Assembly: GCF_025917005.1 (NCBI RefSeq)
Contig: NZ_CP078091.1
Coordinates: 2,294,001 to 2,358,000 of the forward strand
Length of the DNA stretch: 64,000 bases
Source: Porphyrobacter sp. ULC335
Lineage (GTDB): Bacteria > Pseudomonadota > Alphaproteobacteria > Sphingomonadales > Sphingomonadaceae
Direction: 5' to 3'
This document shows, in pieces, positions 10,836-54,562 of the stretch (within the stretch, counting starts at the first letter, position 1; the number at the start of each line of letters is the position of its first letter). The notes under the pieces were generated by a model, which saw only the letters and a program-made list of their open reading frames with translations, was not told the origin of the DNA and ran no database searches. The position numbers and the translations under genes were made by a program.

Positions 10836-11654
10836 ATGGCAGCTATTTCCGGCCTCATTCGCGTCATGGAGCGCGCCGCGCGCAAGGCGGGCGGGCGTCT
10901 GCGCCGCGATTTCGGCGAAGTCGAGCACTTGCAGGTCAGCCGCAAGGGCCCGGCCGATTTCGTCAGCAAGGCCGATATCCGCGCCGAGCGCACGCTTTAT
11001 GACGAACTGCTCGCCGCCCGTCCGGGCTGGGGCTTCGTCATGGAAGAGGCGGGCGTGATCGAAGGCGATCCCGGCATGCCGCGCTGGATCGTCGATCCGC
11101 TCGATGGCACCAGCAACTTCCTCCACGGCATCCCGCACTTCGCCATTTCCATCGCCGCGCAGGAACCGCGCGCCGACGGCAAGGGCTGGGGCGATGTGGT
11201 TGCGGGCGTGGTCTATCAGCCGATCACCGACCAGACCTTCTGGGCGGAAAAATCGCGCGGCGCATGGCTTCAGGATGCGCGCCTGCGCGTCTCGGCCCGC
11301 TCGCGTCTCGCTGATGCCCTTGTGGCGACCGGCGTGCCGTTCTTCGGTCACGGCGACTTTGCCGAATGGAGCCGCATCTTCGGCGCGATCGGCCCCGAAG
11401 TCGCAGGCATCCGTCGTTTTGGCGCCGCATCTCTCGATCTGGCCTATGTGGCGCAGGGCCGGTTTGACGGGTTCTGGGAAAGCGGCCTCAGCGAATGGGA
11501 CACGGCGGCAGGCTGTCTGCTGGTGCGCGAGGCGGGCGGGTTCGTCTCCGATTTCCGCGGCCGGTCCGAACCGATCCATGCCAATCAGGTGCTGGCGGCC
11601 AATGACGGGTTGCACTCGAAGCTGCACAAGCTGCTGGCGGGTGCGCTGCGATAG
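10836..11654 (+). CDS. suhB: inositol monophosphatase family protein (SuhB-like)
   Basis: Mg-dependent sugar/inositol phosphatase; SuhB also acts with ribosomal antitermination complexes in enterobacteria. The 272-aa protein has family marks: DFVSKADIRAE, MEEAG, the metal site IVDPLDGTSNFLHG, GAASLDLAYVAQGRFDGF and the second metal motif WDTAAGCLLVREAGG. It lies nine bases after efp. Its stop is 25 bases before a four-unit 11-bp repeat array and parS-like palindrome. Confidence 0.92.
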   Translation: MAAISGLIRVMERAARKAGGRLRRDFGEVEHLQVSRKGPADFVSKADIRAERTLYDELLAARPGWGFVMEEAGVIEGDPGMPRWIVDPLDGTSNFLHGIPHFAISIAAQEPRADGKGWGDVVAGVVYQPITDQTFWAEKSRGAWLQDARLRVSARSRLADALVATGVPFFGHGDFAEWSRIFGAIGPEVAGIRRFGAASLDLAYVAQGRFDGFWESGLSEWDTAAGCLLVREAGGFVSDFRGRSEPIHANQVLAANDGLHSKLHKLLAGALR

Positions 11655-11679: not shown

Positions 11680-11719
11680 TAGCCCCCCCTTAGACCCCCT
11701 CTAGACCCCCTTTAGCCCC
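11680..11719 (+). repeat. phased 11-bp repeat array (TAGACCCC) beside parS-like site 1
   Basis: Four units start at 11680 (TAGCCCC), 11691 (TAGACCCC), 11702 (TAGACCCC) and 11713 (TAGCCCC), exactly 11 bp apart, so they fall on nearly the same face of the helix. The last unit begins 19 bp before the palindrome at 11732. An array with the same period and spacing lies beside the second palindrome at 39.4 kb. No coding or obvious terminator function is visible. It looks like a protein-binding array; the binding factor is unknown. Confidence 0.8.
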
Positions 11720-11731
11720 GGTTTGCGGCGA

Positions 11732-11747
11732 TGTTTCGCGTGAAACA
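11732..11747. promoter_or_regulatory. parS: parS-like ParB binding site 1
   Basis: TGTTTCGCGTGAAACA is a 16-bp palindrome differing at one central base from the chromosomal parS core TGTTTCACGTGAAACA recognised by ParB. It lies between suhB and tRNA-Leu and is preceded by the phased TAGACCCC array. Chromosomal parS sites cluster near the replication origin in most bacteria. ParB binding is inferred from the motif. Confidence 0.72.
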
Positions 11748-38541: not shown

Positions 38542-39231
38542 CTAAATCGGCTCGAGCGCGTAACCTGCCGACCGGACGGTGCGGATCGGGTCCTTTGCCC
38601 CGTCAATGCCGATCGCCTTGCGCAGGCGGCGGATGTGGACGTCCACCGTGCGCAGTTCGATGTCCGATCCTGTGCCCCAAACGCCGTCAAGCAATTGGCC
38701 GCGGCTGAACACCCGGCCCGGGCTCTCCATGAAGAACTTGAGCAGGCGATATTCCGTCGGGCCAAGCTGCAGGGCGCGGCCGCGGCGCTGGACCTTGTGC
38801 GCGACGGGATCGAGCTTGAGGTCGCCGACCTCGATGGTTTCGCCGGCGAGAGCGGGGCGGATGCGGCGCATCACCGCGGCGACGCGGGCCAGTAACTCGC
38901 GGGGGGAAAAGGGTTTTGTGAGGTAATCGTCAGCCCCGGTTTCCAGCCCGCGCACCCGGTCATCCTCGGCCTCGCGCGCGGTGAGCATGATGATCGGGAC
39001 ATGCGCCGTTTCCTTGTCGCGGCGCAACCGGCGGCAGACCTCGATCCCGCTGGTGCCCTCGATCATCCAGTCCAGGATGATGAGATCAGGCACCTCCTCG
39101 GCGGCGAGCATCAGCGCTTCGTCACCATCGCCGGTGCAGCGCACGGCGTAGCCTTCGTTCTGGAAACGGTATTCGAGCAGCTCGGACAGGGCGGGATCGT
39201 CTTCGACCAGCAACAGTTTGGCGGCGGACAT
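38542..39231 (-). CDS. phoB: phosphate regulon response regulator PhoB
   Basis: A 229-aa OmpR-type regulator that binds Pho boxes when phosphate is scarce. The receiver domain carries LLVEDD, the phosphoacceptor Asp54 in LIILDWM, and Lys in YLTKPFSPRELL. The winged-helix domain follows, ending RTVRSAGYALEPI. The ATG at 39231 gives MSAAKLLLVEDD; an upstream in-frame extension is unlikely. It is the last gene of the phoR-pst cluster, separated from phoU by 238 bases that hold a parS-like site and an 11-bp repeat array. Confidence 0.95.
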   Translation of the reverse strand: MSAAKLLLVEDDPALSELLEYRFQNEGYAVRCTGDGDEALMLAAEEVPDLIILDWMIEGTSGIEVCRRLRRDKETAHVPIIMLTAREAEDDRVRGLETGADDYLTKPFSPRELLARVAAVMRRIRPALAGETIEVGDLKLDPVAHKVQRRGRALQLGPTEYRLLKFFMESPGRVFSRGQLLDGVWGTGSDIELRTVDVHIRRLRKAIGIDGAKDPIRTVRSAGYALEPI

Positions 39232-39345
39232 GCGCAAGTGCCTCCTCAAGCCCGCAAGCGCGGGGAACTCCCGGCGCTATGTGTCACTCGAGCGACAGTT
39301 TGATGAAACCCGGCAAGTTTTCAACCGCGGTGTGACAATCGGCAA

Positions 39346-39361
39346 TGTTTCCCGTGAAACA
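39346..39361. promoter_or_regulatory. parS: parS-like ParB binding site 2
   Basis: TGTTTCCCGTGAAACA differs at one central base from the parS core and extends to a 26-base near-perfect palindrome (39341-39366, GGCAATG...CATTGCC). It lies between phoU and phoB. It is flanked by the second TAGACCCC array at the same distance as site 1 but in the opposite orientation. ParB binding is inferred from the motif. Confidence 0.72.
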
Positions 39362-39372
39362 TTGCCACAAGG

Positions 39373-39424
39373 CGCCCCTAAACGGGGTCTAGAGGGGGTC
39401 TAACAGGGGTCTAAGCGGGGTCTA
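39373..39424 (-). repeat. phased 11-bp repeat array (TAGACCCC) beside parS-like site 2
   Basis: On the minus strand TAGACCCC occurs four times, starting at 39424, 39413, 39402 and 39391, exactly 11 bp apart. A degenerate fifth unit TAGGGGCG starts at 39380. The fifth unit begins 19 bp and the last perfect unit 30 bp before the palindrome, identical to the array at 11.7 kb. It occupies the phoU-phoB spacer. Confidence 0.8.
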
Positions 39425-39469: not shown

Positions 39470-40138
39470 TCAACGGTCGCCTTCGGGCGGATAGACGCCG
39501 GTGGCCGCGAAGTGCACCATCTCGGCCACGTTGGTCGCATGGTCGCCGATGCGTTCGATATTGCGGGCGACAAACAGCAGTTGTGCCGCGCTCGAAATGG
39601 TCGAAGGATTCTCGACCATGTAGCTGACCAGATTGCGGAAAATCGAGTTGTAGAACCCGTCCACCTTGGCATCGGTTGCAATCACCTCACGCGCCAGATC
39701 GGGATCGCGCGCGGCATAGGCGGTCAGCACGTCGTGCACCATCTCGCCCGCCAACTCGCCCATGGTGGGCAGCAGCGTCAGCGGTTCGAACCGGGCGCGG
39801 CCTTCGATCATGCCGGTGCGCTTGGCGATGTTCTTGGAATAATCGCCGATCCGTTCCAGCACGCCAGCGATTTTCAGCGCGGCGATCACTTCGCGAAGGT
39901 CATCGGCCATCGGCGCGCGCAGGGCGATGATCCGCACCGCGAGCTTGTCGACCTCCATTTCGAGCGCGTCCATGCGCTTGTCGCGCAGCACCACCTGTTC
40001 GGCCAGTGCCTCGTCCCCGCGCACCAGCGCGTCGAGCGATTCGGCGATCGCGACTTCGGCGAGGCCGCCCATCTCCGCAATCAACCCGCGCAGCCGGGTG
40101 ATGTCCTCATCGAATGCCTTGACGGTATGTTCAGCCAT
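39470..40138 (-). CDS. phoU: phosphate-specific transport accessory protein PhoU
   Basis: A 222-aa all-helical protein that links Pst transporter state to PhoR, repressing the regulon in high phosphate. It is made of two three-helix PhoU repeats, each with the metal-binding pattern E(R)xxDYxxNIAKR: GVLERIGDYSKNIAKR and ARNIERIGDHATNVAEM. It opens with FDEDITRLRGLI, where the family start is expected. Its ATG overlaps the pstB stop (TGATG), showing coupling. Confidence 0.95.
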   Translation of the reverse strand: MAEHTVKAFDEDITRLRGLIAEMGGLAEVAIAESLDALVRGDEALAEQVVLRDKRMDALEMEVDKLAVRIIALRAPMADDLREVIAALKIAGVLERIGDYSKNIAKRTGMIEGRARFEPLTLLPTMGELAGEMVHDVLTAYAARDPDLAREVIATDAKVDGFYNSIFRNLVSYMVENPSTISSAAQLLFVARNIERIGDHATNVAEMVHFAATGVYPPEGDR

Positions 40139-54490: not shown

Positions 54491-54562
54491 TGTGCGCCCT
54501 ACCACTTTGTTGCTTGAGGGCGGGGCTGTGCGCCCTACCACTTTGTTGGGTGTGGGCGGGGG
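54491..54562. repeat. tandem 36-bp duplication
   Basis: Two adjacent 36-base units start at 54491 and 54527. The first 22 bases, TGTGCGCCCTACCACTTTGTTG (given in two parts: TGTGCGCCCTA and CCACTTTGTTG), are identical; the rest differs slightly. CGCCCT/AGGGCG can form a weak stem in each unit. They fill the space between the hydroxy-acid oxidase gene and the I78 lipoprotein gene. Function unknown. Confidence 0.7.

Follow-up and report, generated by a model that had tools for sequence, protein, structure and literature searches.

The intergenic region between phoU and phoB in a 64,000-nucleotide stretch of the Porphyrobacter sp. ULC335 chromosome (hereafter the window) carries, on the minus strand, an array of 11-bp direct repeats followed by a palindrome that resembles the centromere site parS. 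This element is, on balance, probably one node of a chromosome-wide docking network for the partitioning protein ParB, equipped with a phased accessory module. That conclusion draws on features read from genome sequences, namely the dispersal of such sites, their identity with the species' own centromere, the phasing of array and palindrome, the swapping of accessory modules, the placement at gene ends, the restriction to a clade, and the absence of a dedicated ParB paralogue; the dispersed sites are apparently selected, clade-specific parS with phased modules. The host lineage, Erythrobacter/Porphyrobacter, consists of freshwater and marine bacteria, and the genome of the window (G000; a single contig of 3.62 Mb) belongs to the GTDB genus Erythrobacter. 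The element consists of the following parts.

39417..39424, minus strand: array unit 1, TAGACCCC, exact match
39406..39413, minus strand: array unit 2, TAGACCCC, exact match
39395..39402, minus strand: array unit 3, TAGACCCC, exact match
39384..39391, minus strand: array unit 4, TAGACCCC, exact match, starting 31 bp upstream of the G of the parS core, which is the modal phase
39373..39380, minus strand: degenerate unit TAGGGGCG, 4/8 matches to the unit
39347..39360: parS-like 14-bp core, GTTTCACGGGAAAC on the minus strand, with the halves GTTTCAC and GTTTCCC
39341..39366: extended palindrome, a 26-bp inverted repeat GGCAAT-core-ATTGCC in the sequence, with a 12-bp stem predicted in RNA

An earlier sequence-only reading had described four perfect units starting at 39424, 39413, 39402 and 39391 and a parS-like palindrome at 39361, and we confirmed the units as exact TAGACCCC matches and the palindrome as TGTTTCACGGGAAACA (minus strand, 39361-39346), with a core that has one mismatch against the canonical GTTTCACGTGAAAC. 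A fifth unit proposed at 39380 is present but has to be considered weak, because TAGGGGCG agrees with the unit at only four of eight positions. The element had been taken for the second copy of one that lies elsewhere in the window.

11680..11720, plus strand: array of copy 1, with perfect units at 11691 and 11702 and flanking TAGCCCC-type units at 11680 and 11713, the latter degenerate
11733..11746: parS-like core of copy 1, GTTTCGCGTGAAAC, in a palindrome that starts at 11732

Spacings to the palindrome of 30 bp from the last perfect unit and of 19 bp from the degenerate unit are indeed identical in both copies, and the adjoining sequence TTGYGGCRA is common to them. Chance recurrence had been argued against, rightly so, as the window contains 7 exact units versus 0.51 expected and genome-wide controls were near zero. 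The pairing of array and parS at a fixed spacing is therefore real, with about 42 recurrences, but the term second copy was too modest for what is one of about 50.

When G000 was searched for TAGACCCC-N3-TAGACCCC with up to two mismatches, 142 matches were obtained, compared to 3 for the reversed pattern, and these grouped into 55 arrays with an 11-bp period. The 18-bp palindrome ATGTTTCNCGNGAAACAT, again with up to two mismatches, occurred at 49 sites, and its reversed control at none. A parS-like palindrome follows downstream in 42 of the 55 arrays, and the dispersed parS-like sites include ones of the GTTTCMCGKGAAAC type. G000 also has an ori-type cluster near parB (574.3 kb), made up of five parS sites between 575.7 and 578.9 kb and a looser one at 580.4 kb, without arrays. 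Mapping from replication origin (ori) to terminus (ter) in two genomes, with ori placed by the parB/parS cluster instead of a skew profile, revealed a uniform spread (Kolmogorov-Smirnov p=0.59 in G000 and p=0.33 in G134; here as elsewhere, E-values and shuffles count related sites as independent), and the dispersed sites of these genomes are not origin-proximal as would be expected of chromosomal parS. No strand bias of the G000 arrays was evident by eye.

This dispersal is restricted to a clade. In a survey of 120 genomes of the family, arrays were above chance in G000 only, and no other genome exceeded 5 parS-like sites at up to one mismatch. Within the GTDB genus (114 genomes), 48 genomes contain 9-71 strict parS 16-mers and 66 contain 0-6, and arrays with at least two matches were found in 28 of the 48 dispersed-parS genomes and in none of the other 66 (Fisher 5e-14). 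A tree of 24 ParB proteins split the dispersed and non-dispersed groups with a support of 1.0. Genomes compared include E. colymbi JCM 18338 (G123), Porphyrobacter sp. AAP60 (G144), E. dokdonensis DSW-74 (G126), E. cryptus DSM 12079 (G125) and E. donghaensis (G127).

The strongest evidence that the palindromes are real ParB sites comes from genome G149. There, arrays are followed by GTTCCACGTGGAAC in place of GTTTCACGTGAAAC, all listed sites outside the parB region (L243 and the other G149 sites) have the GTTCCACGTGGAAC form, and the cluster adjoining parB presents AATGTTCCACGTGGAACATT at seven sites. In 12 other array-bearing genomes, the ori sites read AATGTTTCACGTGAAACATT, mainly of the GTTTCACGTGAAAC type, and the dispersed sites sampled in about 10 of those 12 are mainly of the same GTTTCACGTGAAAC type, as are both classes in G000. 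At shared loci, the cores are of the GTTTC type in G000 but of the GTTCC type in G149. Judging from these alignments, the ori cluster and the dispersed sites of G149 have changed together, from GTTTCACGTGAAAC to GTTCCACGTGGAAC, which argues that ParB very likely binds the dispersed sites.

Genome comparison also bears on the idea of a repeat of the repetitive extragenic palindromic (REP) or miniature inverted-repeat transposable element (MITE) kind that carried parS by chance and spread by copying. Such a repeat would fit the many intergenic copies per genome and a copy number that varies between species. However, positions are conserved: 69 loci fetched from other species for their arrays align to the flanks of G000 elements, mostly on both sides, as do 16 of 20 loci from E. 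cryptus and E. donghaensis, although loci in other species were chosen from search listings and are hence a non-random sample. Flanks at shared loci are about 80% identical between species; for example, the parS site of copy 1 is retained next to tRNA-Leu in G149, G123 and G192. Within a genome, only motif and phase are kept and linkers and flanks are not conserved, accessory modules swap at fixed sites, the core tracks the ori sequence of each species, and Rfam has no match for the element, all of which makes spread by copying highly improbable. REP sequences and bacterial interspersed mosaic elements (BIME) are likewise intergenic, palindromic and multicopy, but the Erythrobacter elements differ from them by positions conserved across species, a core tied to the centromere sequence and a phased direct-repeat array.

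G000 encodes a single cognate Spo0J-type ParB at 574328, beside a ParA-type gene at 575092, and ParA and ParB are kept alongside dispersed parS. No dedicated, Noc-like ParB paralogue was found, and G192, G144 and G179 have one ParB_N match each. A 619-residue protein encoded at G000:1022026 gives a weak ParB_N match and looks unrelated; proteins of this type occur in many, not all, genomes of the genus, and their presence, judged by eye, does not follow that of dispersed parS. In the dispersed group, the DNA-binding domain of ParB differs diagnostically, among others at the residue that by counting corresponds to Caulobacter position 179, described as a permissive specificity position (PMC7383237). 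Loss of MipZ or of the SMC partner ScpB as the reason for tolerating parS on the chromosome arms was rejected, as both are retained in both groups: MipZ family matches were found in 114/114 and ScpB matches in 109/114 genomes of the genus, and the five genomes without a ScpB match are fragmented assemblies from both groups.

In an alignment centred on the palindrome, only the core and the units that begin at -31, -42, -53 and -64 had high information, with a weaker unit at -20, and nothing was conserved downstream of +16. Within the 11-bp period, the unit nearest to the palindrome has phase 9, and most elements deviate from it by no more than 1 bp (R=0.84, n=91 elements from several species, R=0.85 with G000 elements excluded); the 91 elements are incompletely independent because many loci are common to several species, and G000 supplies 36 distinct loci. 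Linkers have diverged in sequence but kept their length modulo the helical turn, which we read as selection on helical phase. Array and parS are separable modules that are phase-locked when together, separable because there are loci with an array only and because related species have dispersed parS without arrays. Core centres other than ACGT were found at 23 of 80 array sites, compared to 2 of 28 array-less dispersed sites (p=0.02) and 0 of 102 ori sites; array sites tolerate an altered centre, consistent with the array aiding a weak parS.

Array-less dispersed sites possess a different module. There are 30 parS 16-mers in E. cryptus and 20 in E. donghaensis, neither species has arrays of TAGACCCC pairs, and at 16 of 20 of their dispersed sites GTTC starts exactly 11 bp before the core on either strand. 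The same GTTC(-11) was present at 4 of 6 array-less dispersed sites of G000, at 3 of 35 array sites and at 0 of 107 ori-region sites; examples are L286, L290, L295-L304 and others in G125 and G127, as well as G000:258013, 1109094, 1810684 and 2998044. Orthologous loci usually hold one module, either array or GTTC. At 2392826, 2444372 and 3080608 an array in G000 is matched by GTTC in E. cryptus or E. donghaensis, at 258013 GTTC in G000 is matched by an array in G149, and both modules occur together at a few sites (445542, 2199186, 2623045). Both share one 11-bp register with the parS half-site, with TT at -32/-31, -21/-20, -10/-9 and +1/+2. A phased partner acting at the DNA level is likely.

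Sites prefer gene ends: among 75 classified sites, 40 lie between convergent and 5 between divergent gene pairs (p=8e-8), with gene context taken from simple codon-usage gene calls in the stretches around matches, which suffice for context but fall short of a full annotation. Such a location would suit a transcription terminator in which the C-rich, G-poor 11-nt array serves as Rho loading (rut) site and the palindrome as pausing hairpin or ParB roadblock. The C-rich periodic units, a stable hairpin predicted in RNA and some excess complementarity of the palindrome arms also agree with this possibility (3.26 versus 2.73 pairs in array elements, reached in 5 of 2000 shuffles, with a slight excess at ori sites too). 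However, where neighbouring genes run in tandem, the array lies on the sense strand 12 times and on the antisense strand 7 times, which is no significant bias (p=0.36), Rho needs no helical phase to a palindrome, the stem sequence is fixed and follows the species' centromere, and no T-run terminator was found in the window copy. Termination by Rho is therefore improbable and, in view of the missing sense-strand bias and of the phase lock to the palindrome, was rejected as the main explanation.

Direct repeats of 11 bp suit binding by regulators of the OmpR/PhoB type, and a GTTC at -11 is similar to the LexA box of alphaproteobacteria. Dispersed sites might thus be transcription-factor operators, of the OmpR/PhoB type at the direct repeats or of LexA at GTTC-N7-GTTC, and the full GTTC-N7-GTTC at G000:2623045, upstream of a radical-SAM gene, would fit. 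Still, divergent promoter regions are avoided (5/75), the second half at GTTC(-11) sites is mostly GTTT instead of GTTC, and the flanking genes are functionally unrelated, which makes operators quite improbable. Dispersed parS sites that double as GTTC-N7-GTTC boxes were noted at G000:2623045 (L059), L287 and L304.

The sequence-only reading had also considered an effect on phoB, given the genes that flank the window element.

39470..40138, minus strand: phoU, upstream flank, Pfam PF01895, its 3' end 45 bp from the array
38542..39249, minus strand: phoB-type response regulator, downstream flank, Pfam PF00072 and PF00486

In named relatives, the phoU-phoB locus has array and parS, parS alone, or neither, and a phoB-specific role is unlikely because relatives without the element retain a conserved block immediately upstream of phoB.

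By its layout, the array can be likened to parC of plasmid R1, an array of 11-bp direct repeats. Unlike plasmid ParR/parC systems, the Erythrobacter array lies next to a parS of the ParB type and recurs throughout the chromosome. Chromosomal ParABS systems of Caulobacter, Pseudomonas and Bacillus are similar in having a single ParB, a palindrome of the same kind as the species' own parS and an ori cluster beside parA/parB, but the parS known so far are nearly all close to ori, where as many as about 22 sites have been cited (PMC5815017), whereas the Erythrobacter clade has 9-71 sites per genome, spread evenly to ter in the two mapped genomes, and phased modules. In Bacillus subtilis, Noc and its binding sites (NBS) likewise place tens of ParB-family-type palindromes around the chromosome; Noc, a paralogue of ParB, recognises a separate site that has A in position 1 and C in position 6 (PMC7383237). 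The Erythrobacter sites, in contrast, are parS itself, with position 1 always G in aligned sites and position 6 being A, G, C or T, no dedicated paralogue was found, and ter depletion is not clear.

ParB of P. aeruginosa binds many 7-bp half-parS targets genome-wide with a modest phenotype (PMC10419367), and by analogy the dispersed sites could form a passive ParB reservoir or be a neutral by-product of relaxed ParB, which would also fit the weaker cores tolerated at array sites. In P. aeruginosa, however, the targets are half-sites for which no accessory module has been described; here, full palindromes of 16-20 bp are combined with an 11-bp-phased half-site or array, and these features, the conserved positions and the location at gene ends suggest that each site is under selection. 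A passive reservoir thus has only a modest chance of being correct. Neither the Caulobacter nor the P. aeruginosa precedent extends to complete parS sites that reach as far as ter and carry phased modules.

Returning to the docking network, we infer ParB occupancy, an array-binding protein and a Noc-like output. The single chromosomal ParB would load at dispersed parS, where the accessory module would lie on the same DNA face, either as a GTTC half-site one turn (11 bp) off or as a head-to-tail array of 11-bp TTAGACCCCNN units that is probably bound cooperatively by a putative partner protein. The module may stabilise or limit ParB loading and would set the dispersed sites apart from the centromere, so that ParB could coat the whole nucleoid and the module-free ori cluster would remain the dominant centromere. 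As both MipZ and ScpB are kept in both groups, ParB could act through MipZ or through SMC, and we favour a Noc-like output in which chromosome-wide ParB engages MipZ and/or SMC and couples division and folding to the entire nucleoid; a nucleoid-wide role of this sort is tentative. Equally tentatively, the centromere sequence may have become a chromosome-wide landmark in the Erythrobacter lineage, with ParB and a putative phased partner at arm and ter parS providing whole-nucleoid occlusion or folding via MipZ and/or SMC, without a Noc-type paralogue.

Several observations weigh against the network as proposed. Caulobacter tolerates a second parS cluster up to about 500 kb away from ori, whereas mid-arm positions are disfavoured and copies on the arms disturb segregation and division, with MipZ defects (PMC5815017), and a tolerance mechanism would thus be required. 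Array-less species have dispersed parS, and the array is therefore not needed for dispersal. Conversely, the sequence-only reading had held that arrays scattered without parS would make the pairing coincidental, and such arrays do exist in part: 13 of the 55 have no convincing parS and several loci with an array alone are shared between species, suggesting that the array also has a parS-independent use. Furthermore, the arms of some palindromes, a minority, are extended and covary in part, which hints at an RNA hairpin at some sites.

The array-only loci (G000:722456, 1302943, 1922728, 2541021, 3042816 and 3310056), whose status is kept in the orthologues L212, L219, L225, L229, L231 and L234, lie beside bamB-like, lexA-like, recF-like and ppsR-like genes as judged by eye. 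At G000:1613305 and L301, the palindrome arms reach about 12 bp past the core, and a pair within them has changed in a compensatory manner, CAATATGG/CCATATTG in G000 versus CAAAATGG/CCATTTTG in E. donghaensis.

By rule, parS hardly occurs away from ori and does harm on the chromosome arms. Dispersed parS conflict with this, and a clade that retains ParAB, MipZ and ScpB and yet has as many as about 70 conserved parS all around the chromosome offers a natural exception through which the basis of the rule can be tested. G149 provides a natural example in which a DNA-binding protein has changed in concert with dozens of its targets, and the phasing of the modules at 11 bp suggests a ParB partner that has so far gone unrecognised. 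Dispersed parS in Erythrobacter/Porphyrobacter were not described in any paper found by a literature search, which covered few subscription papers.

Copy 1 of the window is flanked by the following genes.

10836..11654, plus strand: inositol-monophosphatase family gene, upstream of copy 1, Pfam PF00459
11810..11891, plus strand: tRNA gene, downstream of copy 1, Rfam RF00005

An Rfam search of the window returned two tRNAs only. Two near-perfect 36-bp tandem copies (TGTGCGCCCTACCACTTTGTTGCGTGAGGGCGGGGC) were also observed in the window at 54491-54561.
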